From contig CM026432.1 in assembly GCA_014871385.1 (NCBI GenBank), positions 947,194 to 1,011,193 on the forward strand: DNA of 64,000 nt. Reading direction: 5' to 3'. Source of the stretch: Ceratodon purpureus. Lineage: Eukaryota; Streptophyta; Bryopsida; Pseudoditrichales; Ditrichaceae. Every line of letters starts with the position of its first letter. Within the stretch, counting starts at the first letter, position 1. The notes under the pieces are model-generated. The model did not search any database and was not told the DNA's origin. It was given only the letters and a program-made list of their open reading frames with translations. This document shows positions 4,708-64,000 of the stretch, piece after piece. A program made the position numbers and the translations under genes.

Positions 4708-5646
4708 GGGCCAAAAGAGCACTGTGACACTATGTAGAGCATATGTAACATGCTGCACATTACTCAGAGGCCTATAAATATCCAAGAATGTCCAAGAGGG
4801 CTATTGTGGAAAGTTGTAAAAAATAGTGGATTTGGATCTCACTGATGATGAATTAAGCCGATGCTATTGATGCTATTGTGGGAGGAATTCTGAAGCCCTG
4901 TCACTGCACAAAGACTCACCTCATGGTTAAAATACATGCAAGGTAAACTCAAAATGAGGCGATGCACTGGCGTCTTATACCTCCAATAAACCACCAACTC
5001 TATTTCTGAATGACACCATTAGATCAGTGAAATGAAACTGATTCTTTGCTATTGTGCAATGTAGACTCTGGTCTTATCCAGTACAGTACTTCACTTTCTA
5101 CACAGCTTCAAGCCGCAAGTAACAATGCACCGCTTGGCATCCGCAGAAGTCCCAAGTTGCCCTTTCCCTTGGACTCCGAACAGTGGTCACTTCGTCCGAA
5201 CTTTCTCTAGATCAGCTTTTACTTCTTTCTTCATTTTATTCTTTTGTTTGTTAAGTTGTTTTTCTGTGCAGAGAATAAAGGCACAGTGACCAATATCAGT
5301 GTTGTTGTGTGTTTTTTAAAGCATGGCTACTACAGTACAACAGTGCTCTTTCCCGGATTCCCATGGCATGCAACTCCAGGAATAGAGAGTGGAATGGGGA
5401 GCCCAATGCCCATTGACCTCCGATGTCACTCATGCTCCTCCACGATCATCTTTCTCTTCTTCAATCGTATCAGTTACATTAATGTAGTAGTAGACTGTAG
5501 TAGTACCTACCTACCAGGTTGACATTACACTAGTTGATGCTCATCTGAATGATTCACTTCACTGTTCCGGGCTCCAGCCACAGTGCTGTCTAGACACCGT
5601 TTTTGAGCCATTCCATGTTTTTATTGCATAGGATAGTAAAATGTTA

Positions 5647-5748
5647 CTCCCTCTGTCCCATAATGACTTTCTCATAGGTTCTCTAAAATCTACCTCTGCA
5701 GATAGATTTGAGAGAACCTACGAGAAAGTCATTATGGGACAAAGGGAG
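5647..5748. mobile_element. Stowaway-type (Tc1/mariner) MITE, 102 bp hairpin
   Basis: The left end begins CTCCCTCTGTCCCATAATG and the right end is its near-perfect inverse (CATTATGGGACAAAGGGAG). The inverted repeats extend about 45 bases on each side, so nearly the whole element folds into a hairpin. It is flanked by a TA dinucleotide on each side (5645-5646 and 5749-5750), the target duplication of Tc1/mariner elements. The CTCCCTC-GT-CC terminus matches the Stowaway consensus known from flowering plants. There is no coding capacity. Confidence 0.85.
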
Positions 5749-8841: not shown

Positions 8842-9505
8842 GCAGTGACATCCACACTAGCTCTGGACTCTACACTTTCATGGCCCCTTTCCAGTGGGAG
8901 TAAGTTGCAGAATATGATACTTCCTTCATCGTTTCCTTGCTCACTGTTAGCTTCACTTCCACAAACCATGTCTTCAGTGCTTGCTCGGAGGATATGTTTG
9001 GGGCGACCTCAACAAGGATATCATGTCTAGATTTAATTCACTCGTTCGTTGGTTTGGTCAGTGCTATGTGTCGTTTTCTCTCTTGGAGTTTGGAGCTGGA
9101 CATGGAGGGTATGTCTGAATTTCGGCTTGGTGGTTTAGTATGAAAGTTGCTTGATCATTTCCCTTGGTCGGAGTTTTCTTCATTGGGACACCATGTGGGT
9201 TGGCTCAGAGTGGGGGGTTTGCTGAGATGGGTAGCGGTTTATGGGTGGCAAATTCGTCTTTGAGAGGCGACTTCTCACATCTTGGGCATCTTCGACAAAG
9301 AGCACAGGCGGTGAGGGTGGAAAGTGACCATTTGGTGAATTGGGGGAGATCAACACAGCAGCCTTTGGTGGCTCCTGGAAGCCTGTTGTTTCTTCGAGTT
9401 TTCTGGAAAACGTTTAACGGAGGTTGATAGATAGTTTTGTAGAGAGGGGTGTTGGAGGAAGAGGATTGCAGGGGAGCAAGCAGGTTAAGCTTCCAGGGAT
9501 TAGCC

Positions 9506-30702: not shown

Positions 30703-33262
30703 TTGGTGTTGGCTGGCACTCATTACTTTTTGCCGCCCTTATGAAAAGACCCTCGAGTCCCTACTCGCAGGATGAGTTATTTTGAGGATCAATGTCACAC
30801 GAAAGAAATACATCGGACGAGTAAAATGGAGCATCAATTCACCATGGCGAATTGAGGAACATTGAGTTGGTGAATAGATGGCCAGACACTAGCTAGCTGT
30901 GTGTGGACAAGCCCTTTCAACAAATTATTTCCATCTCATGTAGAGCGCTCCTCTGCTCTGGCATGCGATAGTACATCACTTGGCAGGCGATAACACCATC
31001 ATCCACTGTCAGCAAAACGACGGAAACGCTTCAATGAGAGTTGAACAGAGGCCCTTCGTTGTAATGAAAATAGAAGGAAAGCTCCAAATCGTCAGCGACC
31101 AAGTAAAACACTCGCTGGGTAGTTGATCTATTTTCTGACGAACCTATCCATCACCCCGTACAAAGGTTGCCGCCCTCAACAACGGCCGCAGAACCAGCGA
31201 AGCTACGCCTGGTATTATTCTGAGCCCTGCTGTACTAACGCTCTATCAAGGACCAAGTAGAACTGAATATATGAAGCATTCAATGGCGAAAACATCAACT
31301 TCGTAGAATCTTACTCCAGTAAAGTCTTTCTTCCTTCTGAATGTGAATGGGTTGCTCGAATCGATATTAGTCTTCTAGTGAATAAAATTCTAAGAGAAAC
31401 ATCTTCTTAGCGACCTCTGTGAGAATGTCTTCAGTCGCTCAATTTTTAGGCTACCAGTGCTCCTACAGGTTAACTAGTGGTACCATTCACTGCTTCTGCT
31501 GATGCATTATTCGTCGGGAGATGTACAACGATTAGCAATTATGAAGCAGGCTGCAGGCATCACCGCTGCATTATGTTGGGGTACTTTGAATCACATTCTG
31601 GAGGTAAGAGAATGTCAGTGTTCAGTGAAAAACTAACCTTGTCTGCATCCACATTGCCCGTCAGAAGTCAGAACTCCTTGACCCGCCAATTATAAAATAG
31701 GCACCCGTTCAATGATGCATTCTTACTTTCAACATTCAAGGAACATTGGACACTCATCTAGACATCCCCAGACGTTGCAACGGGAAGAAAGAAGTTACCA
31801 TTGCCGTCAAAACTGCCATTGGCGGCAATCACTCGAAAGGACATTGAGCTCGGTAAGTTGATAACGTAAACCAGATCACTGTCAGACGACGGAGTCAAGG
31901 TACAAGAAAATCTGATTTTAGTATATACTGAACCTGCAAACGAATCCACCCTCAAGTGGTGGATGCTTTCAGATTTTGTAACATGAAAGTGGGTTTCCTT
32001 GTTCTGTAGCTATCTTACTGAGACAGCACTAGTCCGTAGCTGGAACGTTTACTGCGTGATAGCATTGGTAGTAAGCGAAGATGTCATTGTGGGGCCTGGC
32101 CAGTCACCAAAGGCAGCTTGGGCGGCTGCGTACTTCGAAGAGTTGCGTATTCTTTTGATTTTGAAACTTAGTTCTCGGCCCTAGTGACTATGTCTCACCG
32201 GAACGAGTCGCTTGCCGAGCTGGTTCGATTCCCGCTTACTCCCTAGATTTCTGTGCCCTCGCTGTTGTCCCCACAATCTCCACAGAAAGTAGATTATCAA
32301 AGTTTGGACTTGGCCAATTTTTCTCTACATTGGTCTCTCCTCGTCTCTAGAGCGATTCCCTTTCTCGAGTATATGTTGTCCGTTGCAGTTTAGGCGTGGT
32401 TTTGTTGATTTTACATCTTAGCCTGAGAGTCCAATCATCATCTTGGCGTGAACGTTGCCATTGCAGGATCTTGAGTGACGGGCTATGGTTGAGTGTGTAG
32501 TACCCGAGCTAGCCCGTGAAGAATCTTTTGTTTCAGTACTTCGAAATAATTGTGTCGGTTCATACGCTTCTGATTCTCAACAAACGTTTGGTGACCACAG
32601 ACTCACCTTGTAGCTTTCGCAATCATCTATCCGTGACAGCATATTTTCTGAGATTTTCCGTGTTTTCCAACCATAGGAATGCTAGGATGCACCTTTCTCT
32701 GCCTCTCTAAGAATTCACTACAGCGGCTTCTAAGTACATCGAGTAGGAGGGTTCTTCAATTTCGCAACCAGCTAGAATCAGCTCGTGGATTGTGTTTTTA
32801 TTGTGAATCAACTCTACTCAATTGCTGCTGTGGGAGTCCTCCCCGTTCTAAAGGGTGCTTAAGACGATTTGATTCCTCAATGCGAAAATCGGAGGATGCT
32901 TCGGAAGACTTTGCATTTGAACTGTTCGTAATTCGGCTTGCGGGCGACACTGAGAGGTATGGTTACAGATCAGAGAGCTTCCTTTGTACGTTTCAGATCA
33001 TTCAGAGTAATCCTTTGATTCCCCACGTGATGTTGGCTTATCTATGGACCAACCTCCTTATTCTTCACTTGCAGCCAGTATCTCTACCTCGCCTTCTCGT
33101 CTCCTAGACCGTTATGTGAACCCTTGCGGTACGCAGTAACCTCAACAACGTCAGAATTCCATCCCTGCTTTCGATGAATTGGACATTCGGCTGCTATTTT
33201 ACGTCCAGGTGATTAGACCTCCTTTCACTTTGGCCTTAAATATGACCTTGCTTTTCTTGGCC
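30703..33262. other. Intergenic / possible 5' exons of the repeat-protein gene
   Basis: Mostly non-coding by eye. Splice-like sites occur near 32940-33180, for example an exon-like segment starting MRKSEDASEDFAFELF at about 32880 with a GT donor at about 32957. They could belong to a 5' extension of the following gene, but no chain with consistent phase could be proven. No RNA gene or mobile element was recognised. Confidence 0.35.
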
Positions 33263-36200
33263 ATGGGTGTGATTGAGCAGACTAAGCTTCGGGTGGAAGG
33301 GGAGATAATGATCATGCACGAAGGTCAAGGAGAGCAGAACGGATCACGAAGGATGGTGGACAAGGTCGCATGTTCACTTCTCCAGGAGGAGATTGAGTCA
33401 TCATTGTTTACACCACAGTATGATGAGGTTTCCCAGGTTGTAGAAATAGCTTCAGCCGAGGTGTCACCGCAGGCACCGTTGAAGTCCGATGCATCCGTTG
33501 TCGAGAAGAAGGCCTCACCTGTACTGGATTCTTTGGGGGAAACTCGTTCCGTTGAGATATTTACTGCCAGCAATATGAGGATAGAGTCTGGGATTCATAC
33601 AAGAGATCAAGAAGGGGAAGCTGATGATGTCCGTACAGAGAGTGGGGAAATCAAGTACGCAGAATGTTCAAGGATCGCACGTAAACTCACTCGCAGTGAG
33701 GAAGCGTCTGTTGATGTGCATTCAGAGGATTCAGAAAAGGCGCAAGACACCACCAGGGACTTCTTGAAGACGGTAAGCAATGTTGACCTTGCGCTCCTCC
33801 AGAAAAATAGTGAAGAATTTGCAGGAAGTCCGCAAGAAGTAGACACAGAGCCCACTTTGGCTGCGAAGTGGAGCCATGAGGTATCAGTTGATGTTATTCC
33901 CCCAGATGACTGGGTTGAGGCAGAGGCTGAGGCTGAGACTAGAGCTGAGGTACCAGCATCTGGCATAGCACCAAGCTTTGAAAGCGGGAAACCTTCACCA
34001 TCAGGTCTAGTCGATGTTGAACCTGTAAGTAGCAACCTTACCACGGAGTATGAAACCCCATCCGCAATAGCGATAGAACTTGAGAAGCAGGGCAGAGAGT
34101 TGATATCCGAGTCACAGCTTGATGTTGAGGGTTCGATTTCAGGAACGTTGGAAAGGGAAATGGCCTCTCCAAATTCGATCGGGACTCAGAGTAGTTTCGA
34201 GAAAAGGGAGAGCGTGTATCTTCCTGAGCAACCACCTCCTCATTCTGTTGAGTGGGAGAGTTATCATTCGAATGAGAGTGAAACGACTACTCAGGAGTTG
34301 CAGGGCCTCCCTATCCAGGTTGGCGAAGCTTCCCAAGATACCGTCCCCACCTCCACTCAAGATGAGGACATAAATTTTAGGGTGTGTCCCAGTCCACTTA
34401 CAGGTGCAGAGGCTGACGAGTCAATTGTATCGGAGTTCACCCAGCCTACAGAAGTGGAGAAACTCAATGTGGCTGAGAGTTCACCTTGCTCTCCTGAGAG
34501 CCCTGAGATGGCTGATGTGGAGGTCGCATGTGAGAGAACTACCGATAATGATTCCAATATTCAAGATGAAAGGCATGTCGTGAGTACAGCAAGAGTCCCA
34601 TCATTCGCAGACCGGGAAAGTATAATAGAAGTTGATGATGGAACGACTGAAGCCATGGTTGAAGAACTAGAATCTACAAGTGCACCACCGCAGCAGTCAG
34701 ATGGTGTTGCAGACATCGAAGAGCAGGTTCAGAGTCTTTGGAGCTTGAAGAATCTGAAGAAAAGGCCGCTGGTTAAACCAAGGTCCGCAGATGAGCAAGC
34801 AGTTCGGCCCAGGGAACCAAAAGCTCCCAAAGTTGTGGGCCTTCCATGGCCTCCAATGCCTCTCACCTGTGCAGAAGACAAGCACTGTATGGACATCGAC
34901 GATGCATTCACATCTCCTGGGATAAGTGTAGCAGAGTCTGTTGGAGCAACTGACACCATTGTCGCAGAACCAAAGGAAGTGCTGAATCCTGAGTCTGCAA
35001 ATCCACCATCAGAGCATTCGGAAGGCACGGACGGAGTGGAAGCAAACATCAGGGAGCAGCATCTTCGGAGACTTTGGAGTCTGCAGTACTTGAAGACAAG
35101 ACCTGTGATGCTGGGACCAAGCACCGTAACTCAGGTATCCGTAAGATCTGTGGAACAGAGAGCACCCAAGGTTGTGGGCCTTCCATGGCCTCCAACGCCT
35201 CTCATTTTTGCAGAAGGCAAGCACTGTATGGACACCGACGATGCCCTTACATCTCCTGAGCAAAGTGTAGCAGAGTCTGCTGGAGCAACTGACACAGTTG
35301 TTGCAGAAGCAAAGGAAGAGCTGGTTCATCTAGAATCTTCAATTTCACCATCAGAGCAGTCGGAAGGCATGGACGGAGTGGAATCGAGCATCAAGGAGCA
35401 GCATCTTCGGAGGCTTTGGAGTCTGCAATACTTGAAGACAAGACCTGTGATGCTCGAACCAACCACCGTAACTCAGGTATCCGTAAAATCTTTGGAACTG
35501 AAAGCACCCAAGGTTGTGGGCCTTCCTTGGCCTCCAATGCCTCTCACCACTGCAGACAACATGCACAGTGTGGACACCGACGATGCGTTCACAACTGCTG
35601 GGCAAAGAGTAGCAGAGTCTGCTGGAGCAACTGACACCACTGTCGCAGTACCAAAGGAAGAGGTGATTTATCTAGAGTCAGCAAGTTCACCATCTGAGGA
35701 ATCGGAAGGCATGGACGGAGTGGAAGCAAACATGAACGAGCAGCACCTTCGCAGGCTTTGGAGTCTGCAATACTTGAAGACAAGACCTGTGATGCTGGAA
35801 CCAACCACCGTAACTCAGGTATCCGTAAAATCTATGGAACTAAAAGCACCCAAGGTTATAGGCCTTCCTTGGCCTCCAACGCCTTATACCTCTGCAGAAT
35901 ATAACGACAATGTGGACACCGACATTGCGTTCAGATCTCCTGAGCAAAGTGTAGCAGAGTCTGTTGGAGCAACTGACGTCATTGTGCGAGTCGCTGTTGA
36001 ACCAGTAAATACCAACCTTACCACGGAGCATGAAGCTCCATCCTCAATAAGAGCAACGGAACTTGAGAAGCAGGGCAGAGAGTTGATATCTGAGTCACTT
36101 GATATTGAGGGGCCGATTTCAGGAAAGTCGGAAAGGGAAATGGCCTCTCCAAATTCGATCGGGACTCAGAGTAGTTTCGAGAAAAGGGAGAGCGTGTATC

Positions 36201-37714
36201 TTCCTGAGCAACCACCTCCTCATTCTGTTGAGTGGGAGAGTAATCATTCGAATGAGAGTAAAACGACTACTCAGGAGTTGCAGGGCCTCCCTGTCCAGGT
36301 TGTCGAAGATGAGGACATGAATTTTAGGGTGTGTCCCAGTCCACTTACAGGTGGAGAGGCTCACGAGTCAATTGTATCGGAGTCCGTCCGGCCTTTACAT
36401 GTAGAGAGAATCAATGTGGCTGAGAGTTCACCTTGCACTTCTCAGAGCCCTGTGATGGCTGATGTCGAGGTCACATGTGCGAGAACTACCGATATGGATT
36501 CCAATATTCAAGATGAAAGGCATGTCGTGAGTACAGCAAGAGTCCCATCATTCGCAGACCGGGAAAGTATAATAGAAGTTGATGATGGAACGACTGAAGC
36601 CATGGTTGAAGAACTAGAATCTACAAGTGCACCACCGCAGCAGTCAGATGGTGTTGCAGACATCGAAGAGCAGGTTGAGAGTCTTTGGAGCTTGAAGAAT
36701 CTGAAGAAAAGGCCGCTGGCTAAACCAAGGAACGCAGCTGAGCAAGCAGTTCGACCCAGGGAACCAAAAGCTCCCAAATATGTGGGCCTTCCATGGCCTC
36801 CAATGCCTCTCACCTGTGCAGAAGATAAGCACTGTATGGACATCGACGATGCATTCACATCTCCTGGGATAAGTGTAGCAGAGTCTGTTGGAGCAACTGA
36901 CACCATTGTCGCAGAACCAAAGGAAGTGCTGAATCTTGAGTCTGCAAATCCACCATCAGAGCAATCGGAAGCAGAGTTTGTTGGAGCAACTGACACCATT
37001 GTTGCAGAACCAAAGGAAGTGCTGAATCTTGAGTCTGCAAATCCACCATCAGAGCAATCGGAAGCAGAGTTTGTTGGAGCAACTGACACCATTGTTGCAG
37101 AACCAAAGGAAGTGCTGAATCCTGAGTCTGCAAATCCACCATCAGAGCATTCGGAAGGCACGGACGGAGTGGAAGCAAACATCAGGGAGCAGCATCTTCG
37201 GAGACTTTGGAGTCTGCAGTACTTGAAGACAAGACCTGTGATGCTGGGACCAAGCACCGTAACTCAGGTATCCGTAAGATCTGTGGAACAGAGAGCACCC
37301 AAGGTTGTGGGCCTTCCATGGCCTCCAACGCCTCTCATTTTTGCAGAAGGCAAGCACTGTATGGACACCGACGATGCCCTTACATCTCCTGAGCAAAGTG
37401 TAGCAGAGTCTGCTGGAGCAACTGACACAGTTGTTGCAGAAGCAAAGGAAGAGCTGATTCGTCTAGAATCTGCTAGTTCACCATCAGAGCAGTCGGAAGG
37501 CATGGACGGAGTGGAATCGAGCATCATGGAGCAGCATCTTCGGAGGCTTTGGAGTATGCAATACTTGAAGACAAGACCTGTGATGCTGGAACCGAGCACC
37601 GTAACTCAGCTGTCCCTAAAATCTGGGAAACTGAAAGCACCCAAGGTTGTGGGCCTGTCTTGGCCCCCAGCACCTTTTAGTACTTCACCAGGTATCAACG
37701 GTGTTTTCACTTAG
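33263..37714 (+). CDS. Large acidic repeat protein with GLPWPP-containing 114-residue units, function unknown
   Basis: A single open frame of 1483 codons from an ATG in good context (GCCATGG), ending in TAG. The frame stays open upstream to 33179, so an earlier start or a 5' exon is possible. The protein is rich in Glu, Ser, Ala and Val, with no signal peptide, catalytic motif or domain I recognise. Seven units carry a core of LWSLQYLKTRPVML, then about 20 residues, then APKVVGLPWPPxP. Units 2 to 4 are spaced exactly 342 bp (114 residues). A non-repeat block (about 34010-34710) recurs at about 35990-36660, so the order is block, units 1-4, block, units 5-7. A 31-residue segment is triplicated within unit 5. 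The tryptophan/proline cores within acidic, probably disordered spacers suggest a multivalent scaffold, which is inference. I do not know the family. Confidence 0.75.
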   Translation: MGVIEQTKLRVEGEIMIMHEGQGEQNGSRRMVDKVACSLLQEEIESSLFTPQYDEVSQVVEIASAEVSPQAPLKSDASVVEKKASPVLDSLGETRSVEIFTASNMRIESGIHTRDQEGEADDVRTESGEIKYAECSRIARKLTRSEEASVDVHSEDSEKAQDTTRDFLKTVSNVDLALLQKNSEEFAGSPQEVDTEPTLAAKWSHEVSVDVIPPDDWVEAEAEAETRAEVPASGIAPSFESGKPSPSGLVDVEPVSSNLTTEYETPSAIAIELEKQGRELISESQLDVEGSISGTLEREMASPNSIGTQSSFEKRESVYLPEQPPPHSVEWESYHSNESETTTQELQGLPIQVGEASQDTVPTSTQDEDINFRVCPSPLTGAEADESIVSEFTQPTEVEKLNVAESSPCSPESPEMADVEVACERTTDNDSNIQDERHVVSTARVPSFADRESIIEVDDGTTEAMVEELESTSAPPQQSDGVADIEEQVQSLWSLKNLKKRPLVKPRSADEQAVRPREPKAPKVVGLPWPPMPLTCAEDKHCMDIDDAFTSPGISVAESVGATDTIVAEPKEVLNPESANPPSEHSEGTDGVEANIREQHLRRLWSLQYLKTRPVMLGPSTVTQVSVRSVEQRAPKVVGLPWPPTPLIFAEGKHCMDTDDALTSPEQSVAESAGATDTVVAEAKEELVHLESSISPSEQSEGMDGVESSIKEQHLRRLWSLQYLKTRPVMLEPTTVTQVSVKSLELKAPKVVGLPWPPMPLTTADNMHSVDTDDAFTTAGQRVAESAGATDTTVAVPKEEVIYLESASSPSEESEGMDGVEANMNEQHLRRLWSLQYLKTRPVMLEPTTVTQVSVKSMELKAPKVIGLPWPPTPYTSAEYNDNVDTDIAFRSPEQSVAESVGATDVIVRVAVEPVNTNLTTEHEAPSSIRATELEKQGRELISESLDIEGPISGKSEREMASPNSIGTQSSFEKRESVYLPEQPPPHSVEWESNHSNESKTTTQELQGLPVQVVEDEDMNFRVCPSPLTGGEAHESIVSESVRPLHVERINVAESSPCTSQSPVMADVEVTCARTTDMDSNIQDERHVVSTARVPSFADRESIIEVDDGTTEAMVEELESTSAPPQQSDGVADIEEQVESLWSLKNLKKRPLAKPRNAAEQAVRPREPKAPKYVGLPWPPMPLTCAEDKHCMDIDDAFTSPGISVAESVGATDTIVAEPKEVLNLESANPPSEQSEAEFVGATDTIVAEPKEVLNLESANPPSEQSEAEFVGATDTIVAEPKEVLNPESANPPSEHSEGTDGVEANIREQHLRRLWSLQYLKTRPVMLGPSTVTQVSVRSVEQRAPKVVGLPWPPTPLIFAEGKHCMDTDDALTSPEQSVAESAGATDTVVAEAKEELIRLESASSPSEQSEGMDGVESSIMEQHLRRLWSMQYLKTRPVMLEPSTVTQLSLKSGKLKAPKVVGLSWPPAPFSTSPGINGVFT
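34010..37714 (+). repeat. Nested coding repeats: 342-bp units, a 2-kb duplication and a 93-bp triplication
   Basis: GAGCAGC-CTTCG anchors at 35054, 35396 and 35738 give a period of exactly 342 bp. The segment 34561-34729 appears identical to 36508-36676, and 35045-35322 to 37175-37452, including third codon positions. The interval from the 34010 block to the 35990 block is about 1.95-1.98 kb. A 93-bp unit beginning GCAGAGTTTGTTGG starts at 36971 and again at 37064. All repeat lengths are multiples of three, so the frame is kept. Confidence 0.9.
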
Positions 37715-47620: not shown

Positions 47621-49160
47621 GCTGTGCAAGACATGTAACATTTAAATAAAGTAGTTTTAGCTACAGAAAAATTATTTGATATCGTTTTGTAGTTTTGACT
47701 ATGGAAGGTCTAATATTTTGGGTAATGGTTGGTGGTTTTCAATTCTTCTTTTATGGAGGAGGATAGACATGGCATATTGTATGGCAATAGTGTTCATGTT
47801 TTTAAAGGTATTTTTAATGGTGGTCATAGATATTTTGAAATTGTGTGTAAGTAGTTTCATTGATGGAATGTGAGTAGTGGCTTTGGCGCGTGATGTGATA
47901 ACAATAAAGGGGTCAACTTTCCATCCTCTAACAACGATACTGGCAATTAATGGATTGTATTTTTTAGTTTTAGCTTGAAGTGTTTCTGGAGAGAATCTGT
48001 CATTGGAGTATGTGAATCAAATAAATTGTCTGGTAAAATTGAAATTTGTTCCTGTAGGGGGGTCGCTTTGGTATGGTAAATCTTTGACACAGAGGGTGTC
48101 TAGTCTAAATCTTGAGTTACAATGGCATTGTTGTGCGTTGCATGTGCATGGAAGTAGCCAATTAGGAATGATGTTTTCTGGAGGTTTATCATTGAAGGTG
48201 CTAGCATTCATGAGAATAAAACAACTTGATTTTTCGGATGAGACTAATAATTTTCTAATTTTCCAAACTCCTTATTGTGTCTTTTGACTCAGATTGATAA
48301 GTAGTTAAAGCAACAATTTCATGTTCTTGAGAACATTACATTCTCGTCACCTCTATCATCTGTAAAGAAGCAACCATCATATTATTGTTCTACACATGTC
48401 ATTTTTGTCATCTTTTTTTATTTCACAAATTAAATGAAACAATTGTTTCTTGGCTTTAATATAGCAGCAATGGTACAACCAAACATGTGACTAAAAGATA
48501 CTTACTACAAGTTCAAAAGTTTTCTAAGTGTATTTATTTAGCTCCAATATTACTGACAAATTTTGTTTATTACACCATGTGTATTTGCTATATTTCCATT
48601 AATATTTTAGAGATCAACAAATTATTCTCGATTTGCAATTGAAACAAATAAAAAATTATTAAATTATTTGTGTCACAAATGGACTAAATCAACAATTCTT
48701 TAGAGTGGTTTCTAGAGTCTATACTTATGTTTGTACCTAAGCTCAACTTGAATAATGAATACAATCAATATTATTATGATACTATGACCTTACTTCTTTT
48801 AGGAATACTTTCATCATCATTGCTAATTCGATCTTCTTTGTAATCATTAGAATCAATTTTGATTCAAAAGATATTTTAGTATTGAGGAGGTCTTATTTTC
48901 GTTTTCCCTTCCCTTCCACACCTAATTCTTTTTTACCATATAAAAAATGACTTTTCAAAGACATTCAATTCTTTGACAAAGAACACTTGAAAGAATTTAT
49001 AAAAAATAAAATATCAACAATTCTTTAGATGCAAAATGAATTGAATTTACAAAGATCAATACTAAATGAAAATCATGAAATCATCTAGATTCACTTATAT
49101 ATCCACCCATCCATTCCTTCATTCAATACATCGCCTTCTAACCTCTTGTCCGCCGCCAAG

Positions 49161-49395
49161 CTTCTCGTCCATCCCCTCCCCTTCTCGTCCATCCCCTCCC
49201 CTTCTCGTCCATCCCCTCCCCTTCTCGTCCATCCCCTCCCCTTCTCGTCCATCCCCTCCCCTTCTCGTCCATCCCCTCCCCTTCTCGTCCATCCCCTCCC
49301 CTTCTCGTCCATCCCCTCCCCTTCTCGTCCATCCCCTCCCCTTCTCGTCCATCCCCTCCCCTTCTCGTCCATCCCCTCCCCTTCTCGTCCATCCC
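49161..49395. repeat. Perfect 20-bp minisatellite, 11 full copies plus a partial
   Basis: The unit CTTCTCGTCCATCCCCTCCC is repeated without a single change from 49161 to 49380, with a 15-base partial unit to 49395. One strand is almost purely pyrimidine. It ends about 270 bases before the CT-alpha start codon, so it lies in the promoter or 5' leader. Because 20 is not a multiple of 3, all three frames on each strand cycle through a 20-residue peptide repeat. The long frames seen there on both strands are artefacts. Confidence 0.97.
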
Positions 49396-49668
49396 TCGTC
49401 CCCTCCACCTCGTCCATTCCTCCGGCATCGACCCCTCCGCCCTCCAACAACAATCCCACACGCATCCAACACCACCGCACCCCACCCAGGCATCACCCCA
49501 GTACCACCCGGACACCACCCAGGTATCAACCGAAACCCCTCCACAACCCACACACCTGCTCTTCTCTTCGGCGCAGGGAGGGAGGAGCAGTTCCTCACTC
49601 GGAGCCTGCATCGCATTGGCATCCACCATCTCCGATCCGGCCCAAGGATTCTCACCGCCGCGATCACC

Positions 49669-53190: not shown

Positions 53191-56100
53191 AGTTGTGTAT
53201 ATCTGATGCCTGCATGCTTCCGGGCAGGTCCTCATGTTTTCACAACGCCCTCTCATTTCAAGAGGTTTGTATTTGTATTAGTGAGCCCTGCATAGATTCG
53301 GTGACTTAACAAACCTTCCCACATGAAGATTACATCAGTAAATCCTGGTTGAACTGTACTGGCAGTGTCAAATCCTAAGCCCTGAGTTTCCGCCCTAAAT
53401 CCCTGTACTAAACCCAAAAATTCATGAGGCTTTTCTGCAGCTGGGCACTTGAGGAAGCTGTCGACGGCCATGTAGCATGGTTTTGGTGTGCTAATGCTGT
53501 GCGCTGTGGGCGACCATACCAACGATCCGAAGAGCTCTTTCAAGTGTTAGAATCCTTCCAGTTTTAGTAAAATACCCAATTGCTAGGCACTTGTGGATTT
53601 CCTCATTGGTATCGGCGCTCACATATTTGGTTTCTTTGAGTGGAAGTTTAGGAAGCTGACTTGAAACAGTCGCTAGTGAAGTTCTGGATCTGGTCAAGTT
53701 GATTCTGTCAAAGATATATTCCAGATTTATTCTGGCTTTCGATCGTCAAGGTAACTCCTGCTCTAGAGTTTACCAACCAGTTTTTTTCCCGTCGAATGGT
53801 GTTGTCACAGAGTCCGCGAAATATAAATAAATGCGATTCCGGCCTGTGAAGATTCTCAATGCACTGGCTGTAAGTTGAGTCTCCTTGCAGTTGAATCCTT
53901 TAGAGCGCAGCCAACATGAAAATGGTCGTTGAGTACATACAGCTTGCAAAACCTTGGAATCTGCAAAACCTCCGTTGATGGGGTGCTGCAAATGAAATAA
54001 ACCGCATTATCAACAGCCTTGGAAATTATTCACAATTGCCCCATATATGGTCATTATCTTAACAGGAAGATCTAATACGCTGTATGTAATAACAGAAGCG
54101 ATATCGCCGTGAACAAACACATGATTTTTGTTTTGAGTTGATCCTTCAGAGATGAACGTGGTCACTAAAAAGAAAGTGCATGTGCTTGTTGTGGTGAAGG
54201 ATGTTTGTGAAAAGAAGTAGACATGTACTGCGTATGCCATTGTAGTAATTTTAGTACTTTGTGGTGTAAGTAATACAAAAATTTCTTGAATTTGAAATTT
54301 TAACTTTTCATCTTCATTAATATTTAATCCTCAATCATCTCATTGTCTCCTACCTAACCATAATTAGTTGTTGACACCTCTACAAGAAATATGAAATTTA
54401 TTTGGAAATCATTTACTATAGATCCTCTTTTGTTTAAAAAACAACCAATAAATCATTAATTTTTTATATGAATTGTCAAATTTATTTCTCAACTTTAAAG
54501 CAAATAACTAAAACATCATTCCATATTTATAAAAAACTTAGTGGATTTCATGGAACTTTAATTCAACCTATGCTAAGGAACAACTATTTCTCTTGCATGT
54601 ATATTATTATTACACACACAATATGATTCATGAACCAAACACATCAATCACTCGACTTCATTCGTATGGGACTGGATGCCATTCATCTTTGAAAGACTCC
54701 TAGTTGATCCTCCTCAAACATAAAACCATGGAAGGTTATGTGTTTCCTCTTTGTTGGAGGGGATATTCTTGAGGGTACATGAATAAACCTCTATCCAATC
54801 TGCCTAGATACCACACTACAATGTACTCTCTATTTACTAACTTTCTTTCATTTTAGTTCCCACTCCTCATCCTCTTGCCATTCTTTCTTCAACTTCAGTT
54901 TGAGTTGTCTGACTCGATGTTGTCGAAACATTTTCAACAGTTTGAGTCCTAGTTCTTTACCTCTTACTAACATTTTGGCTTGTAGTGCTGAGGCTTGGGC
55001 GTGTGGATTGAACACTTTGATGCCACAATGAGTAGTTGATAAATTTTTCAAGTATCGAGCAACTCTTGCTCTTGGTTTTCTTGCTACGCTCCTATTCCAG
55101 ATAAATTTTATTACCATTGTTTCAACTTTAGGAAATATTTTTTTAGAAAGTTTTGTGCAACTCACTACATACCAAATTGAAGCTAGTACTACTTGGTTTC
55201 TTACAAGTATCTATGGCATGGATAGAGATCGGTGTGATCACCAGCTCAATTTTCTCTTGATAACACCATATTCGTTATATTGAGACAAAATGACCATTTT
55301 GAGACTACGTCCCTATTATTGCGGAGTTGACATCAAGGATAGTTGTTGAAGCCTTGCTCTGAACATTCGAATTCTTTAGCATGGTATGGGAAAAATATGA
55401 ATGTTTTTTTTTTCTCCTTCACAAATGGTACGTTTATTACCAATGAAGAGGATTGCGCCAGAAACAAAATCACACACAGAACCAAAGCACGGCAAAGAGC
55501 CGAGGTTGGCAGAAAAAGGAAATATATACGATTTTCAACATTTGGAATGAAAAACAGGAAGCCTTTCTTGAATACGAAAAGAAATGATGCATCTCTTAGT
55601 AGATACTATATAATTTGCATTTGTTATAGTCTTTGGCCCAAAAAAACTGCGTATCCTACGTTGTGAGAGACTCTATTATTGCAATGAACAGTTCAAAGGA
55701 ATATTTCTAAAAGCTACTATTGAAATATTTTGAAGTAGAAAAATAGTATGAATGGAAGGGAAGCATTGAGGAAGTAGGAATTCTACAGAACAGAAATTAT
55801 CTTCAACTTTAATAAACTCCAAAAACAAAATAGGGAAAACGTGTTCACTATCCATTCCATAGCTTGAACTTCAGGTGCATGAGGATATTACAATTTTTAA
55901 TATTTAAATAACGTTAAAAAAGTCAGTGACATGGAAGGTTTGGAGGGAATCCAAGAGAATGTAGCGAGAGTGGATGACTCACATTAAACGGCTTCAAATT
56001 ATAAGTAGTCAAAAATGTATTCAACATTGATAGGAGACTCTGATACAAGTATCAGATGAAACCAAGGACTGTGCATTACCTGCATTTAAAAACTAGACAT

Positions 56101-56752
56101 TTAGGGGGTTTCAAAAATAATTTGATCTATTTCCAGTCAAATAAAAAAGTTAAGTATCTTAAAGGTTTGCTAAGATACGTAAAAGATAACAATATGAGTG
56201 AATGAGAAGCATGAGGAAACTTTGATTGGTAAGCAATGATAACATACTTAATTGTGAAAATCAAGAGGAAATTTTCAGGAAATACTGATTTCTATTTATA
56301 GAACTTTTGAAAATCACTTATTATATCAAAGGGTCAGAAGAAAATGTTAGAAAATATAGTACAAGTGGAATGGAAGCATTGAAATACTTGTCATTGTATG
56401 CAATGCAATCTTTATTGAATTGTAAACTGATTAAATAATTCCTGACAAGTGCCTCAAGAAATGTGAATTACATTCAGTCTCAAGCTTGAACTTCTGGGTG
56501 TACCAAAGAATAAGTTTGTCTATTTATAGCATGATACATTTTCATTCTAAATGAGCTTGTACACTCTACTGTGGCTTACTATAGCAAAATTTAATTGAAC
56601 TTTAACGTGAACAGAGAAATTTCAAACATTTGTAAGCAGAATAAACTTTGAACATAGAATTGTACTCCGGTTCTCATATTTCTGTAATAACTAATTCTAT
56701 TGTCTTTAGATCCACTATATGTCCAAGTGCTTTGAATTTAAGAACAACTCAA
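53191..56752. other. Intergenic region between CT-alpha and the ParB/FCP1-like gene
   Basis: The CT-alpha 3' flank (to about 53700) is followed by AT-rich DNA with no intact gene. A degraded LINE reverse-transcriptase tail is visible on the minus strand (54848-55165). The remainder (55200-56750) shows nothing I can name. The two genes converge here, so both 3' ends lie in this region. Confidence 0.5.
54848..55165 (-). pseudogene. Relic of a LINE (non-LTR) reverse transcriptase C-terminal region
   Basis: A 105-codon frame on the minus strand reads IKFIWN, then ARVARYLKNL, then GIKVFNPHAQASALQAKMLVRG. This resembles the segment just after the reverse-transcriptase domain in plant LINEs (FIW, then K-R-V-W-L, a GGLGV-like turn, and ALQAKWLWR). 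No upstream RT, endonuclease or poly-A tail was found, so it is a short decayed fragment. The match is by pattern memory only and is tentative. Confidence 0.4.
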
Positions 56753-59700
56753 CTACTCTGCAAAATAATTCTGGAGCATGGATGTCGTAGCCGTTTCCGC
56801 TGTCAATGACTCTCTCATAGAATGGCTGTTGACAACCCCATCCTCTACATTGCCTTTAGAGAAATCAATAGCAGCAGAAGCCGCATCAGAGGCCCAGAAC
56901 ATGACATACGGCTTTGAGTATTGGGCTTGACCATGGCCTGTGCTCGTAGAGTTCAAATTCCCAGATAATAGGCTATTATCAAACGAATTTGAAGCTTCTG
57001 TCTCTTCAAATGAGGGGGGGTATACCTCTGTCGTAGCCCCTGCAAGCTGAGAAATGATTGAACCCAGTTAAAACAACTCTCATAAGTTTCTTAAGCACTA
57101 GTATACCTGTCAATATGGCATACCTTAAGAGTATTGCAGAATATTAATACCGAGGTCAAGCCAGGAGCACAACATCCATGAGTTTTGTACGTAGAGAAAT
57201 CAGAGATTCACTTACGGATAAGAAAACAAAAACAAGAATGAATTGAATAAAAAAAGAAAAAAGTAAAGATAAGATAAACAAATTCACTCTATAAAATATA
57301 TTAGGAAAAATACAGAAAGGTGTGAAACTAAGTGAACAGCCTTTGGAGAGCATCCCAAACAACAGTTAGATTCTGCTGTTGAATTTGTGTAGAGAATAAA
57401 CTATACCTTATATTATCTAAATTAAAAAGGCATATACACTATTCAATTCTAACGACCATACAAACCAGGGACTCCTATTATATCATACTGAATCCCAACG
57501 ATCTTGGTAGATAAAGCCATTCCCCTCATCATGTGCGACAGTTGTGGGTCATCAACTGACAGAGGTGACAATCCAATTCGGTTTTGGTTCACATACTTCG
57601 TAAGCCCACCGGCCAAGCAAGCTAAGTTCAAGTTCTTCAACCACGGCGCAAGTGTATCTACAAGGTATTCAAAGTCAGGTCGATCACGAGACCACGACTC
57701 TAAGAATAAAGCATTCCCGCTCTCATTACAAATACTCTTTTCAGGAGAGTCATCAATAAGTATAGTGTTATTATGATTAAATGGCCACGATTCAGCTCTA
57801 CTTGAGAATAGTTGTTGAGGCATAATTTTTAGATAAATTAGTTTGTTATCATCTCCACTAAAAAGAGATCTACCTTCTCCTATGTCAATGGTTTGGCAAT
57901 GATCTTGGCCAAGGATGGCAAAGGGGGCAGGGAGATCATGGAATAGGTAATTAGCTATCATGGATGTAGTGCTCCGTTTCATTGAGCTCCAAATGACTAT
58001 CCGAGCAAAGTCACTAACACAATCAAGAAACTCACGCACACGTGGCCGACAATATACCCCCTTGGTTCCTATTAGAGTCGGAACCTTTGACGAATAAATA
58101 TGTTGTTCAGGAAGGTACGTCCGGCCACGTCGAATAGCTGCTGATCTTTCAACACATTGGCATAAGACACCGTTCAAGTCAAGAACTATGTTGAGCCATT
58201 TTGAAGCGGACGCTGTCTCAAGAGCCACTTCTGACGAGACGATGGGCCCTCTTGAACTATCCATGCCTATCTGCTAAACAAGAAAAAAAACAGTTGAAGT
58301 CACCTGTACAAATGCAGATCCAGGAAAACGCGTAACTATCGGTTTTGTCAGAGTATTTGAAACGAAATACACAAGAGGACTCCAGAATTCCACCGATAGA
58401 TGATGTTGTTAAGGGGAAAGGTTGATGAACAGTGTGAAAAAATTAGGCATAGAAAACATAAGAAATCGTTAAAAGAATTTAAATTTTAACTTTATAATGA
58501 CCGTGTGAAACATTCCTTTACAAGTGCGAGGCAAGCAACCGTATACTGTCCATGACCTAAACCAAAATGGTTGCTATATATACAAAACCGCTTAGCACTT
58601 CGCGGTGACCATCTCCACTTCAAAACGATTTAGTCCTGATTCACTCCTGTCAATCCACATCATTTGTATAAGAATCTACAAATGACGAAACCGGTTTGGG
58701 ACATGACACATTCAAATACTCTCAGGCCATCAACCCATACTCATGATATTTCGGAGTTCGGGAATACCTGATTGAGAGATATTTCTTGGAGTTCTCCCTC
58801 TTCTGGGTGGGGGAGCCCAACTTCAAGGCTGTAGACATCTTCTTCTGCAGGCACATCTGGACGAACGACACCATTACGTACAGGATCTGAAGCTAAGCCC
58901 GGGACACTCTCTTCTAGAGTAGCTGAATTTCCAACTGCTACTGGAAAACTAGCAACCTGCAGTAAAGATGGAGTAGTTGCCATATCGGGCTCGAATGAAA
59001 ATCGCAACAAGTCCTCCTCTGATCCTGTCTGGCAATCAACAGACTCAGATATGCTCTTGGAAACTAAGGGAACTTGCACGTCTGACATGGAAGGAGTTGG
59101 TGCCTCAGAGCTCTGTTGGGGAATTGCAAATGTCAATGAAACATTTGCTCCTTTCCTCGTAGAAAGCTCAGGACTATGAACAACGTCATCTGCAGAAAAG
59201 GGTGCTGAAGATCCACTTGCAACAAGTAAACCTTGTACCTCCAAACTTCTTAGTCTCTCCAACTCTAGCTGGAGCTTCTCCATCTTCAGCTGCGAGGCTA
59301 ATTTCTCCTCTGCCTTTTTCTTCTTCCGCATCTCTCGAATGGTCCACCACTCCCCCTCACCTTTTGGAACAACAACATCTAAGGGAGGTGCTTTCCCAGC
59401 AGCATTTCTAAAGTCGCTGTCATCGATATCCTCTACCACCACATCAGCTGCCATACTACAAACATCACGAGCAACAGTAGTAAGAGGAACATGTTCCTCT
59501 ACATCCTGCAGAAATGTCCCTTTAGTTCTGGTACTACCATTGCCGTCTTCGTCATCAGAGTCACTGAGGGTGATAATAATAGGATCCTGTACTGGAGAAC
59601 TTGGCTCGACAATTGGATCCAGATCATCAGTAGGCTCCTCATCGGAGTCACCAACAAGATCACCCCTAATCCCATCAATCTCTGGAGGCTGAAAACTCAA

Positions 59701-62700
59701 ATTGACTTCTGCATTTACTTCTGTATCATTGCGTGGCGATTCGGTGGCAGGAGAGTCTCGTCCAACTGGAGGAAGTTGAGATCCATACTGATCAAAGCTT
59801 CCGCTGGATCCATACTGTTGGGTCTCCCTCACGAGCTCGCCCTCCACTTCATCCAAGTTCCCAGGGTTCTCCGTCTCTTCTACAAGACCAACAGGAGTAG
59901 AGACAGTGGGAGCTACTACCCGAGTTGATTCGCGACACGCACGCGCAGGACGTGGAAGAACCCGATTAGTTGGTAAAGACGCACTACTCGATGCAGTCCG
60001 CGGGTCATAAGGACAAGCCACATGCAAAAAATCGTTCATGTCAATGAACTTGGAGAGACGTTTTAGTCTCTCATATGAAGCTTCCTGCAATGTACACACC
60101 ACGCCGTAATAGCTGACGTTGAAAGCCTGCACAAAACAACAAAGCTCTGTCTGTTAGAGAACCGTATCTTCGACCCGAGGATAATGTATATTGGCCAAAA
60201 TAGTGAAACAACATTTGAAGCCTAAAAAACAAAGTATACAAAGAACATAAGAATCAGATCTGTATGGAAGACTTCGCATACCCTTGATGCTAGCATGAAT
60301 TTCGTGCCGGTGTGGATGCCAAGGACGTTCTCTCCAGCCGTGCTAAATAGTTGGAGAATTTCGAAATAAAACTCCATGCGTAACTCAGATGAGTATAGAC
60401 GGTATTTCGACTCATTGTACCTGCCATATTCAGAGTAATATAGGATGTTGTTGGGAACAGTAAAGAGAGGCCTCACATTCTGCCGGACAGAGTCAGCGCG
60501 GCTGTCTTCAAGCTTGAGCAGAAAGAGAAGGTAAACCGAAGAAGGGGGCGCGCGTGTTTTTGCGTCGTACAGACGCTCATTCTTCGACGAAATGTAAACT
60601 GATGGAACAACGTCGTACTCAGGCAGCAATTGCTTTACCACTTGCTCTGCTATTTTGGAGACTACCTCTGATGGACAAATCCATAGCCACACTGATGGAT
60701 CGGAGAATGAAGGTTCTGCCATTTTCTTTGATAGCCTGTCAATGTAGGAGGTCAATTCATCGCTATCTCCATCTCCTCCAACTGGAGCATTTCGGAGGTC
60801 CATCAGAGCGAACCCCAGACTTCTGGTACTTCTATATCTCCAATTCGAACCAAGAGCAAGCGACACTCCGTTCTGGGTCCTCAGTTTAGCCTTTGCTAAT
60901 TTATCCCGGACATCTGATTTCAAACGAATGAACGATTTAAAGAAGGGAAAAACGTATGGAAATTTCTCTACAAAGTCTCGAGCGCGCTTGCGTTTTCCCT
61001 CATTTGTTAACCTCTTCGAAAAGTATTCCCTTCCCGGCAGATACAGTAATGAATTGTATGTGCCACTTGAAATTCTTTGTTCCTTCTTCCAGTTCCTCCA
61101 CTGCTCTCCGTCAATCGATCCATCGGACGACAACAACATCTTCAGGTCTTTGTTGATATCCACAATCTCCTCCACTATAATCCGCTTCCGCTTCCGCCGC
61201 TCTACCCATTCGTGTCCAGTATGATGAGAAGCATGCACGTCCATGGTCTTGAAGACTGTAACCTTTGGAAACGGTTTAGTCCATGCTGGTGTGCGGCCTA
61301 GAAGATGCTGCACATATACCTTGAAATCTGCATCTGTAAAGTGTCCAAAATGCTTGAAGAACTCACGGTTTAGATAAAACTTTGGGTTTAACTTGAAGCC
61401 CTCCTTCTCTCTGTACATCTTTCCCGTATCAGGGTTGATGAGCTCACCGCTATGGTGATTCTCGATGAACTCTTGCCACATCGCGAAGTGGTCATCTTCT
61501 AGAGTTATAATTTGTATCTCACTCTTTATATCCGAATGAATTACTACACCTTTTCCGTCTTTGTTGGGGTTGATCGCTTGGAATCTACTGATGATTGCTT
61601 GCGTAAATTTCTGCATGAAGGACAAGAAGGAAGAAAGATTGTCTTTAGTCGTCTTGCATAAATAGAACTTCATATCTTCGACTCGAAGATAGACTGTAGA
61701 GTATATCTTAAATTCTACAAAACCCTGACCTGTATCCTCGACTCGAGGATAAGTAAGGGGCGTCACTGTGATATACTAAACATATTGAAAGATCACTACA
61801 TAGCCAATGGAGGCTTAGCAGTTACAGAAGGAACAATATCAACATGACAATCAAGTATATGATCACAGTCAAAACTTACAGTGTAGGCAGAGGAGTTGAA
61901 GGCTGAACCATTCTCGCGTCTGTCGTTGTCATTCTCCTTATCTGTGGGTCGTCCTGAAACAGTCCATATTCTCCGTCCAGATATAAGTTGCCATCCCCAA
62001 GTAGGCTGAACATGCTCCAAATGGTTGGCAGAGTTATAGAATTTGGATATCTGGGTCAATTTCTGAGAATCCAGGGTCCACACAATGTATGCTTCCCACG
62101 ATGCTAGCTCTTTCTTCCTTTCTTCTCCACAACCTCCGAGCTGGAGCTCAGCAGACGCGGTGATGCTATGTTGTCCATTAATAATCATAAATTTCCCATC
62201 CTGAATCTCTGACCACGTGGAAGGCTTGGTCTTGAGGAGGTTTCCATTTCCATCTATAGGTGTCAAGCAAACCTTCTGTCTCTGTCGATGGTCGCCGATG
62301 TGAAGAAGCTGCGTCTTGACACTCTCTACAATCTCCCTTTGAAGACGACGTATAATATATTCATCCTTTGCTAGAATACATTGATTGATGTCAACATTGT
62401 AAGATTGTTGTCCAAAGATATAACAGTCCTTACATTCACTCCAGAAAGTTGCTTGCAACTTTGCGAACTTCTCAAAGTCTGGAATATCTGCCTGCTTCTT
62501 TCCTTTGCTTCTCTCAACTTGCGTTAGGCCAGACCCAGAGCTACAGACATCACCAACTGACTTCCTCTGTTTTTTGGATGCTCCCGAATGATTGGGAGAC
62601 ACTATCTTCCATTTTCGTTGTTCCGCAGGAATAATGGGGTTTGACGTATCCGTCGTCTGGCTGCTTTGAGTCCCCAGAGCTGATGTAGTCTTCAATCCTA

Positions 62701-63280
62701 ATCCACCTTTCTGCTTCCCGGTTCCTGTAGGTTGAGGGGGTCTTGGCAAATTGTCCGCACAGTGGATCAATGTCCGGTAAATTGCACTGACTCTTCTATA
62801 AACACCCCCGGCACTAGTTTTCACCCACGGGACGTAATGCTTCTGGAGATCAGGTTTCAGGGCCTCTAGTGCGGATCCGTTAAGCTTTCGTAGAAGACCT
62901 TGTATGTCAAACTGAGCTCCACAATCATCACCAACTTTTACAACGATTGTGTGAACATGCTCATGATGTTCTCCAGTCTCCGTCATTGCTGAAACAGTGA
63001 TTCCAATATGATCCGGTGGAAATGTCTCTATAATGGTGACCTTCTCATCTATCTTCAAGGACAGGAAAGGAGATGACTCTCGTTCTCGATGAGTTAGGTA
63101 GACATAATTCTTGAACCTGCATACACCAAGACTCCAGCTATGGACGCAGTCCGCGAATCTCCACAGTTTTCCATAGCTGAGGGCACCCTCTTCTATGAAA
63201 TCTCTGTCTGGATACGGATTTTCAAACTCAACTAGAAAGGGGGCGCTTCCTTCATAGTTGTAGTCGTCTTCCTCTGCCAT
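56753..63280 (-). CDS. ParB-like / DNA-methyltransferase-like / FCP1-type HAD fusion protein
   Basis: The five exons on the minus strand are 63280-61880, 61610-60282, 60126-58768, 58270-57466 and 57039-56753. All use GT-AG and phases match (0,0,0,1), giving 1726 residues. Residues about 300-420 are a ParB/DGQHR-like domain (FMIINGQHSITASAEL, ISKFYNSANH). About 715-940 resembles an N4/N6 DNA methylase in beta order: FALMDLRNAP where DPPY is expected, WLWICP, and a late FSTAGENVLGIHTGTKFMLA where the SAM loop FxGxG is expected. Both catalytic signatures are altered. At about 1093-1103 IIITLSDSDDE looks like a SUMO-interaction motif, and a coiled coil spans about 1171-1207. About 1385-1580 is an FCP1/NLI-type HAD domain (LDLNGVL, IVIWSSM, ILIDDSPEKS). 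DLN replaces DxD, so phosphatase activity is doubtful. The start is the first ATG behind an acceptor at 63289-63290, so an upstream non-coding exon is likely. Exon 4 could also end at its own TAG (57449). Confidence 0.7.
60165..60183. repeat. 19-bp palindrome copy 1 (two arm mismatches), intron 2 of the ParB-like gene
   Basis: TATCTTCGACCCGAGGATA, an imperfect 9-1-9 palindrome in the 155-bp intron between exons 2 and 3. Confidence 0.85.
61673..61691. repeat. 19-bp palindrome copy 2, intron 1 of the ParB-like gene
   Basis: TATCTTCGACTCGAAGATA, with perfectly matching 9-base arms around a central C. It carries compensating changes (CTT/AAG) in both arms relative to the consensus. Confidence 0.95.
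61733..61751. repeat. 19-bp palindrome copy 3, intron 1 of the ParB-like gene
   Basis: TATCCTCGACTCGAGGATA, perfect arms, starting 60 bases after copy 2 starts, in the same 269-bp intron. Confidence 0.97.
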
Positions 63281-63347
63281 TCTTGCGCCTGCACAGAACA
63301 ATGCATGGGTTCAGGGACGTTTTGAAATCCAGATCTTCATCGACAAT

Positions 63348-63366
63348 TATCCTCGACTCGAGGATA
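63348..63366. repeat. 19-bp palindrome copy 4, upstream of the ParB-like gene
   Basis: TATCCTCGACTCGAGGATA, identical to copy 3, located 68 bases upstream of the presumed start codon in the promoter or a 5'-UTR intron. Confidence 0.97.
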
Positions 63367-63595
63367 GAGGTCAGACATGCTGAATTGTTTCGTATCATTG
63401 TAGAAATTATCTAAGTTGATGCTTGGTCATCCTGAATCCTATCTTACTTATTGCAACAATAGATAGCTTTCACTGTAATCTTAGATATATGTTTTTACTT
63501 AAATCATTTTTGTTTCTGATATAAATCTGAAACAAACATACATTAATATCAGTGTATGATCCAAGTTCAGTGAACTTTCTCTTGACTTCAGGGTT

Positions 63596-63614
63596 TATCC
63601 TCGAGTCGAGGATA
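63596..63614. repeat. 19-bp palindrome copy 5, upstream of the ParB-like gene
   Basis: TATCCTCGAGTCGAGGATA, perfect arms with a central G, so the same sequence as copies 3 and 4 in the opposite orientation. Confidence 0.97.
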
Positions 63615-63752
63615 CTTGGCATTTCTTAAGTAGAGGCACTTTCTGTTTGTTTTAACATTCTTTAGAAATTAAAATTTTAAAAGTAGAGTTTTTTTTAAAT
63701 AGAGTATTAGAGTTCCATAAATCCTTTTCATAGAGTTCCATAAAGCCTTAGT

Positions 63753-63771
63753 TATCCTTGAGTCGAGGATA
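63753..63771. repeat. 19-bp palindrome copy 6, upstream of the ParB-like gene
   Basis: TATCCTTGAGTCGAGGATA, one arm mismatch. It is followed by AAATGAGTCAAATTTGA, which is shared with copy 7, so copies 6 and 7 arose by local duplication of a longer unit. Confidence 0.95.
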
Positions 63772-63923
63772 AAATGAGTCAAATTTGACATAATTGTCCC
63801 TATCTTTACAGACTGATGATGAGAATATAGTCATAAAGTTATGTTGTTCATTTTTCAAATTCCTAAATTATCTATGTTTTTCACATCTAGTTCTGAGAAG
63901 GATACCATGCAATCAGCTTCAGT

Positions 63924-63942
63924 TATCCTCGAGTCAAGGATA
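63924..63942. repeat. 19-bp palindrome copy 7, upstream of the ParB-like gene
   Basis: TATCCTCGAGTCAAGGATA, one arm mismatch on the opposite arm from copy 6, 171 bases away, with the same flank (AAATGAGTTAAATTTGA). Confidence 0.95.
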
Positions 63943-64000
63943 AAATGAGTTAAATTTGAAGAGAAATTATGATAACATACTCATTAACAAACTCAGTGAG

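Follow-up and report, generated by a model that had tools for sequence, protein, structure and literature searches.

A Five-Exon Gene Within a Giant Moss Transposon

We analyzed a 64,000-nucleotide stretch of the genome of the moss Ceratodon purpureus (contig CM026432.1, positions 947,194 to 1,011,193; hereafter the window), which hosts on its minus strand a gene, here termed ParB-HAD, that joins a ParB-like domain to a HAD domain of the C-terminal domain (CTD) phosphatase type. As judged from sequence, this gene is one of two divergent genes in a DNA transposon of 22.9-25.1 kb, and not a host regulator (Table 1).

Spliced in frame at GT/AG sites, the five exons give a coding sequence of 5181 nt for 1726 amino acids, the single fused gene that a sequence-only reading of the window had proposed, and comparison with three other, diverged copies (exon-1 identity to the window about 68-72%) bears this model out at three of the four junctions: 1/2, 2/3 and 3/4 have GT/AG sites at homologous positions in all four copies. 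The exon-4 donor is likewise kept at its homologous position in 4/4, and homology of the exon-5 acceptor was not established by copy comparison. HAD-exon matches also sit downstream of exon-1 matches genome-wide, which supports a single gene: of the 64 listed exon-1 matches of ≥1200 bases, at least 50 are followed by a HAD-exon match on the same strand, a lower bound in that 83 of 143 HAD rows entered the pairing and 60, mostly of ~40% identity, were left out. The median distance between the 5' ends of paired matches is 5.8 kb. In exon 3, identity to the window is 35-39% in the C4 and C5a copies, with the reading frame still open, and in the C5b copy it is 72% over the first 125 amino acids and 37% thereafter. 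Purifying selection seems to act on exons 1, 2 and 4, whose ratios of non-synonymous to synonymous substitution (dN/dS, NG86) fall within 0.04-0.17 wherever dS could be estimated (9 of 18 comparisons); dS exceeds 2 in two of these nine and is saturated in the other nine. A search with the full-length protein returned no relative at E ≤ 0.01.

Both 25-bp terminal inverted repeats (TIRs) of the window element are perfect, with TGAT on either side. Three further full copies were recovered, one on C4 (22,954 bp) and two on C5 (23,719 and 25,055 bp), and all four large copies have at both ends the TIR, differing at no more than one position, together with a 4-bp target-site duplication (TSD; TGAT, ATTT, AAAT and GATG). 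Genome-wide, the TIR has 383 matches (≤2 mismatches), as against 0 for the reversed control. The gene is multicopy, with at least 93 exon-1 and at least 143 HAD-exon match rows, some of which are pieces of one copy; the genome candidates scored were 91 of 542 for exon 1, 143 of 837 for the HAD exon and 48 of 1761 for DUF7869, the domain of the partner gene. A 400-bp direct repeat in the C4 copy, which includes an additional copy of one TIR, had suggested a retrotransposon; this reading was dropped because the TIRs lie at the outer ends.

The second gene, divergent from ParB-HAD, is in the window element an uninterrupted frame of 948 amino acids with a Pfam DUF7869 match (E=1.4e-43). Across 65 sequences, Asp 419/422, 544 and 584/586 of DUF7869 are invariant or near-invariant, and the gene probably encodes the transposase. 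A divergent ParB-like partner lies less than 40 kb from 46 of 48 DUF7869 matches (the best 48 of 1761). Contig C6, which makes up 30% of the genome length, carries 43 of the 64 long exon-1 matches and 28 of the 48 DUF7869 matches among those listed.

Two of the copies have repetitive surroundings. At C5:15500-68500 (L022, L021, L023, L024) a transposon copy lies within an array of ~99.8% identical repeats, spaced ~2.7 kb apart, near a contig end. The C4 copy is flanked by repeated frames (L014, L015, L016) that are 85-94% alike in DNA and perhaps belong to a tandem gene family.

Table 1. Features of the ParB-HAD gene, its palindrome sites and the element that carries it (window positions unless a contig is named).
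Feature	Position	Strand	Details and basis
Exon 1	61880..63280	-	467 aa; N-terminal beta domain and ParB-like domain; spliced model, structure model, copy comparison
Exon-1 part aligned with ParB N-domains	62006..62407	-	residues about 292-425; fold comparison
Exon 2	60282..61610	-	443 aa; no known domain found; spliced model, profile searches, copy comparison
Exon 3	58768..60126	-	453 aa; fast-evolving linker; spliced model, copy comparison
Exon 4	57466..58270	-	268 aa; NIF/FCP1-type HAD domain; profile match, copy comparison
Pfam NIF match	57629..58189	-	exon-4 residues 28-214; PF03031, E=1.9e-12
Exon 5, includes stop codon	56753..57039	-	spliced model, copy comparison
Palindrome site, intron 2	60165..60183		2 mismatches
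Palindrome site, intron 1	61673..61691		2 mismatches
Palindrome site TATCCTCGACTCGAGGATA, intron 1	61733..61751		pattern search
Palindrome site upstream of ATG	63348..63366		pattern search
Palindrome site upstream of ATG	63596..63614		pattern search
Palindrome site upstream of ATG	63753..63771		pattern search
Palindrome site upstream of ATG	63924..63942		three more sites of the array past the window end
Whole element	C12:1002455-1025740		23,286 bp; left 8.7 kb = window 55262..64000
Left TIR, 25 bp, AACACCATATTCGTTATATTGAGAC	55262..55286	+	repeat search at element ends
TSD TGAT, left copy	55258..55261		right copy past the window end at C12:1025741-1025744

Domains of the ParB-HAD Protein

The sequence-only reading had claimed a ParB-type domain and had staked itself in advance on a ParB fold, and this fold was found in exon 1. 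When the exon-1 domain was modelled alone, fold searching of the predicted structure identified the ParB N-domain (ParB/Srx) fold, with KorB among the matches; the model of the whole of exon 1 was poor (predicted local distance difference test, pLDDT, 54.5) and its fold search weak. The helices past residue 420, the position of a possible helix-turn-helix, were modelled at low confidence. Sequence searches added no support: the domain had no match in Pfam, NCBIfam or the PDB, neither a search of viral contigs nor a phage tblastn supported a ParB relationship, and in PHROGs only P0003 (1 of 14 members) matched a ParB-like family (E 0.019), and this match, at residues 157-214, does not fall in the ParB-like part. 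In ParB, GxxR is the CTP-binding motif; its arginine is absent here, where 15 of 16 sequences read NGQHS and one NGQHN. The elements contain two long genes (frames ≥140 amino acids), and no ParA was seen, although no search was aimed at ParA. The modelled structure supports a ParB-type fold encoded by exon 1.

A DNA-methylase module, claimed for the adjoining part of the protein, was not confirmed. Exon 2 matched no Pfam or NCBIfam family, so that no methylase was detected by sequence, the fold of exon 2 not having been examined; a DPPW/Y-type motif is absent, and the DPSVW stretch, which differs from DPPW, is unconserved, reading EPCVW in one of the four copies. On this sequence evidence we rejected the N6/N4 methylase reading.

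The predicted CTD-phosphatase-type HAD domain, in contrast, was recovered by profile search, PF03031 (NIF) matching exon 4 in all four copies (E 1.9e-12 to 2e-11); no PDB chain matched the HAD exon by sequence. Phosphatases of the FCP1/NIF type have a DxDx(T/V) signature with both aspartates. The exon-4 signature is DLNGV in three of the four copies, the window included, with asparagine for the second catalytic aspartate, and DLDGV in the C4 copy; catalysis is uncertain for this reason, and the domain is possibly non-catalytic.

Palindrome Arrays Follow the Protein Subfamilies

All seven window sites of the 19-bp palindrome TATCCTCGASTCGAGGATA (≤2 mismatches) lie at the ParB-HAD gene. The four whole elements hold 89 sites (20, 22, 20 and 27), none of them in coding exons: they stand upstream of both genes, in intron 1 in 4/4 elements and in intron 2 in 3/4. 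The site closest to the start of one gene is 71-86 bp away; for the other gene this distance is 140 bp in three copies and 413 bp in the fourth. Twenty shuffles per element, preserving base composition only and not dinucleotides, yielded zero sites, and the genome contains 587 sites versus 2 for the reversed pattern.

Similarly, TTAGCTCACWGTGAGCTAA is arranged in the same way at loci whose proteins form a second subfamily (42-45% identity), with 1775 genome occurrences versus 1 for the control, and the one locus fetched for a third subfamily (32% identity) has TTAGCTCGASTCGAGCTAA at 13 upstream positions and three in intron 1. The subfamily's own site is present at 11 of 12 loci of subfamily 1, to which the window copy belongs, at 9/9 of subfamily 2 and at 1/1 of subfamily 3, the exception being L036, a copy with stops and zero sites. 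Another subfamily's site occurs at none of the 22 loci (≤2 mismatches), several of which are near-identical copies and not independent. In addition, the C-terminal tails of P0002-P0004 can be back-translated to TATCCTCGASTCGAGGATA or TATCGTCGASTCGACGATA, as if read-through into intron 1 had occurred.

An unrooted tree of 19 sequences (8 of the 12 subfamily-1 loci with the window in place of L025, 6 of the 9 of subfamily 2, the single one of subfamily 3, and P0001-P0004) splits subfamilies 2 and 3 from subfamily 1 plus P0001-P0004 with a support of 0.93, and site type therefore follows the protein. The three sites share a 7-5-7 block pattern, that of subfamily 3 reading like the outer block of 2 enclosing the inner block of 1.

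Within subfamily 1 the two genes differ in how far they have diverged. Among the matches listed, identity to the DUF7869 protein of the window element is 92-99% in the 11 closest other copies, and 8 other full-length copies share 68-72% identity with the window in the ParB exon; the disparity, 92-99% for the DUF7869 half against near 70% for the ParB half, is seen in L012, L006, L017 and L021 (C12, C4, C5). These elements perhaps have a mosaic history with exchange of modules.

Four isolated perfect palindromes that we fetched (L001-L004) proved to lie in miniature elements of 243-256 bp with TIRs of the same transposon family, one end being a variant. All four have a 4-bp TSD (ACTA, CAAT, CGCT and ATCA) and a single palindrome near the center, which amounts to co-occurrence and not necessity, as the elements were picked via the palindrome. 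Collectively, palindromes that are subfamily-specific, never mixed among these loci and present once per miniature element point to parS-like self-recognition, in which each protein would mark its own element.

Comparison With Known Systems

Sola1-1_Ec32 of Ectocarpus, 21.5 kb long, carries a ParB-methylase accessory gene opposite its transposase, and similar accessory genes are reported from green and red algae (PMC12477816, partial text). The moss element is alike in being a giant of ~20 kb whose ParB-like gene is transcribed opposite the putative transposase, and unlike in having, instead of a detected methylase, a CTD-phosphatase-type domain; the string "palindrom" is absent from the main text of the algal study. 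VANC proteins of Arabidopsis VANDAL elements relieve silencing, and family-specific motif arrays in non-coding DNA, in introns and upstream, change together with the protein; for VANC21 the motif has nine bases, YAGTATTAY, and its arrays keep a single orientation (PMC5735166, partial text). Family-specific motif arrays in non-coding parts are shared by the moss element, which differs in its 19-bp palindromes and ParB-type fold.

With bacterial ParB, Noc and KorB the moss protein shares the ParB N-domain fold and palindromic sites in arrays; it differs from them in residing on a eukaryotic transposon, in the missing GxxR arginine and in its added N-terminal, linker and NIF parts, and its binding is only predicted. 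Likewise, PF03031 places all four copies beside the FCP1/SCP (NIF) CTD phosphatases, from which the asparagine substitution in three of them and the fusion to a ParB-like domain set them apart.

Lanisha is a DNA transposon superfamily reportedly proposed in 2020 by Maumus, McDaniel and Carey, said to be the Ceratodon genome group. Its description likens it to EnSpm and places CxxC and Hx3-4H between the second D and the last E (PMC12730594, partial text). Lanisha and the moss element are both cut-and-paste transposons and possibly share a host; in DUF7869, however, the invariant CxxC (358-361) precedes the first invariant Asp 419, the catalytic roles being only predicted. The Sola superfamily has a 4-bp TSD, as do the large and miniature moss copies. 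A Sola1 of Physcomitrella appears in a review table (PMC9033089, partial text).

Proposed Function and Alternatives

We propose, with a probability of about 0.6, that ParB-HAD plays the accessory role in a giant DNA transposon of two genes, its protein binding the element's own palindromes and keeping the element expressed or unsilenced. The ParB-like part would bind its own subfamily's palindrome as a dimer, like ParB at parS. The arrays, placed at the two promoters and within introns, would concentrate many protein copies on the element, where the C-terminal CTD-phosphatase-type domain would act on RNA polymerase II or chromatin, and the element's own genes would stay expressed or the element would evade silencing. 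That the miniature copies carry a single palindrome suggests a possible further role for this recognition in mobilising non-autonomous relatives. The protein's action may be anti-silencing, activation, repression or an aid to transposition. A bolder extension, which we consider less probable, is a eukaryotic ParB-parS-like system of plant transposons, in which the protein would load at its own subfamily's palindromes, gather or spread over kilobases and bring the CTD-phosphatase-type domain to RNA polymerase II. Every transposon lineage would in this way have an address of its own, by which the element is labelled as self and kept active, and which would diversify through exchange of the outer 7-bp and inner 5-bp blocks of the palindrome.

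TnpA of En/Spm acts at subterminal repeats, and palindrome binding could in the same way serve transposition, by joining the ends or assisting the DUF7869 transposase. The likely transposase partner and the four miniature elements examined, each with TIRs, a TSD and one palindrome and too short for a gene, favor such a role, but we consider it less likely, as the sites in the four full elements lie kilobases inside, by promoters and in introns, away from the ends; moreover, C1-C4 have 18 listed perfect TIRs, of which four have a perfect palindrome within ~130 bp and 14 have none, some of the 14 being ends of large elements and the comparison covering perfect sites only. The spacing of the arrays at both promoters, together with KorB among the fold matches, would also suit a copy-number auto-regulator that represses both genes through the palindromes, as ParB/KorB-type repressors do, yet further sites in introns 1 and 2 and in gene-less miniature elements make this unlikely.

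An epigenetic self-modifier with a degenerate methylase, as suggested for the ParB-methylase proteins of algal transposons, would fit the layout shared with Sola1-1_Ec32 (21.5 kb, accessory ParB-like gene opposite the transposase strand; PMC12477816, partial text), but with neither a methylase family match nor a conserved catalytic motif in exon 2 we give it very little credence. Least credible is a domesticated host nuclear regulator: the open frames are intact and dN/dS is far below 1 where estimable, but the window copy still lies within TIRs and a TSD, is paired with DUF7869 and is one of many copies. The sequence-only reading had envisaged a captured prokaryotic or mobile-element module turned nuclear regulator, of which the link to mobile elements stands and the host regulator does not.

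Other Features of the Window

Elsewhere in the window, frames at 9443-12065 (+) resemble by eye an NPR1-type BTB/ankyrin gene, and a frame of 1524 codons at 33140-37714 (+) consists partly of 342-bp and 93-bp tandem repeats. At 5638-5757, 58-nt inverted repeat arms lie 4 nt apart and resemble a Stowaway-type miniature element, and at 49101-49455 a 20-bp pyrimidine-rich tandem repeat has open frames on both strands.

Significance

The transposon context accounts for a fused gene that would otherwise be mistaken for a plant regulator. ParB-like accessory proteins of algal transposons have been noted before, in the source text available without named target sites; new here are protein subfamilies with matching, mutually exclusive palindromes, which make it possible to test directly in vitro what such proteins bind and how transposon and target site evolve together. 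The fusion to a CTD-phosphatase-type domain would provide a concrete route by which a transposon may talk to RNA polymerase II.
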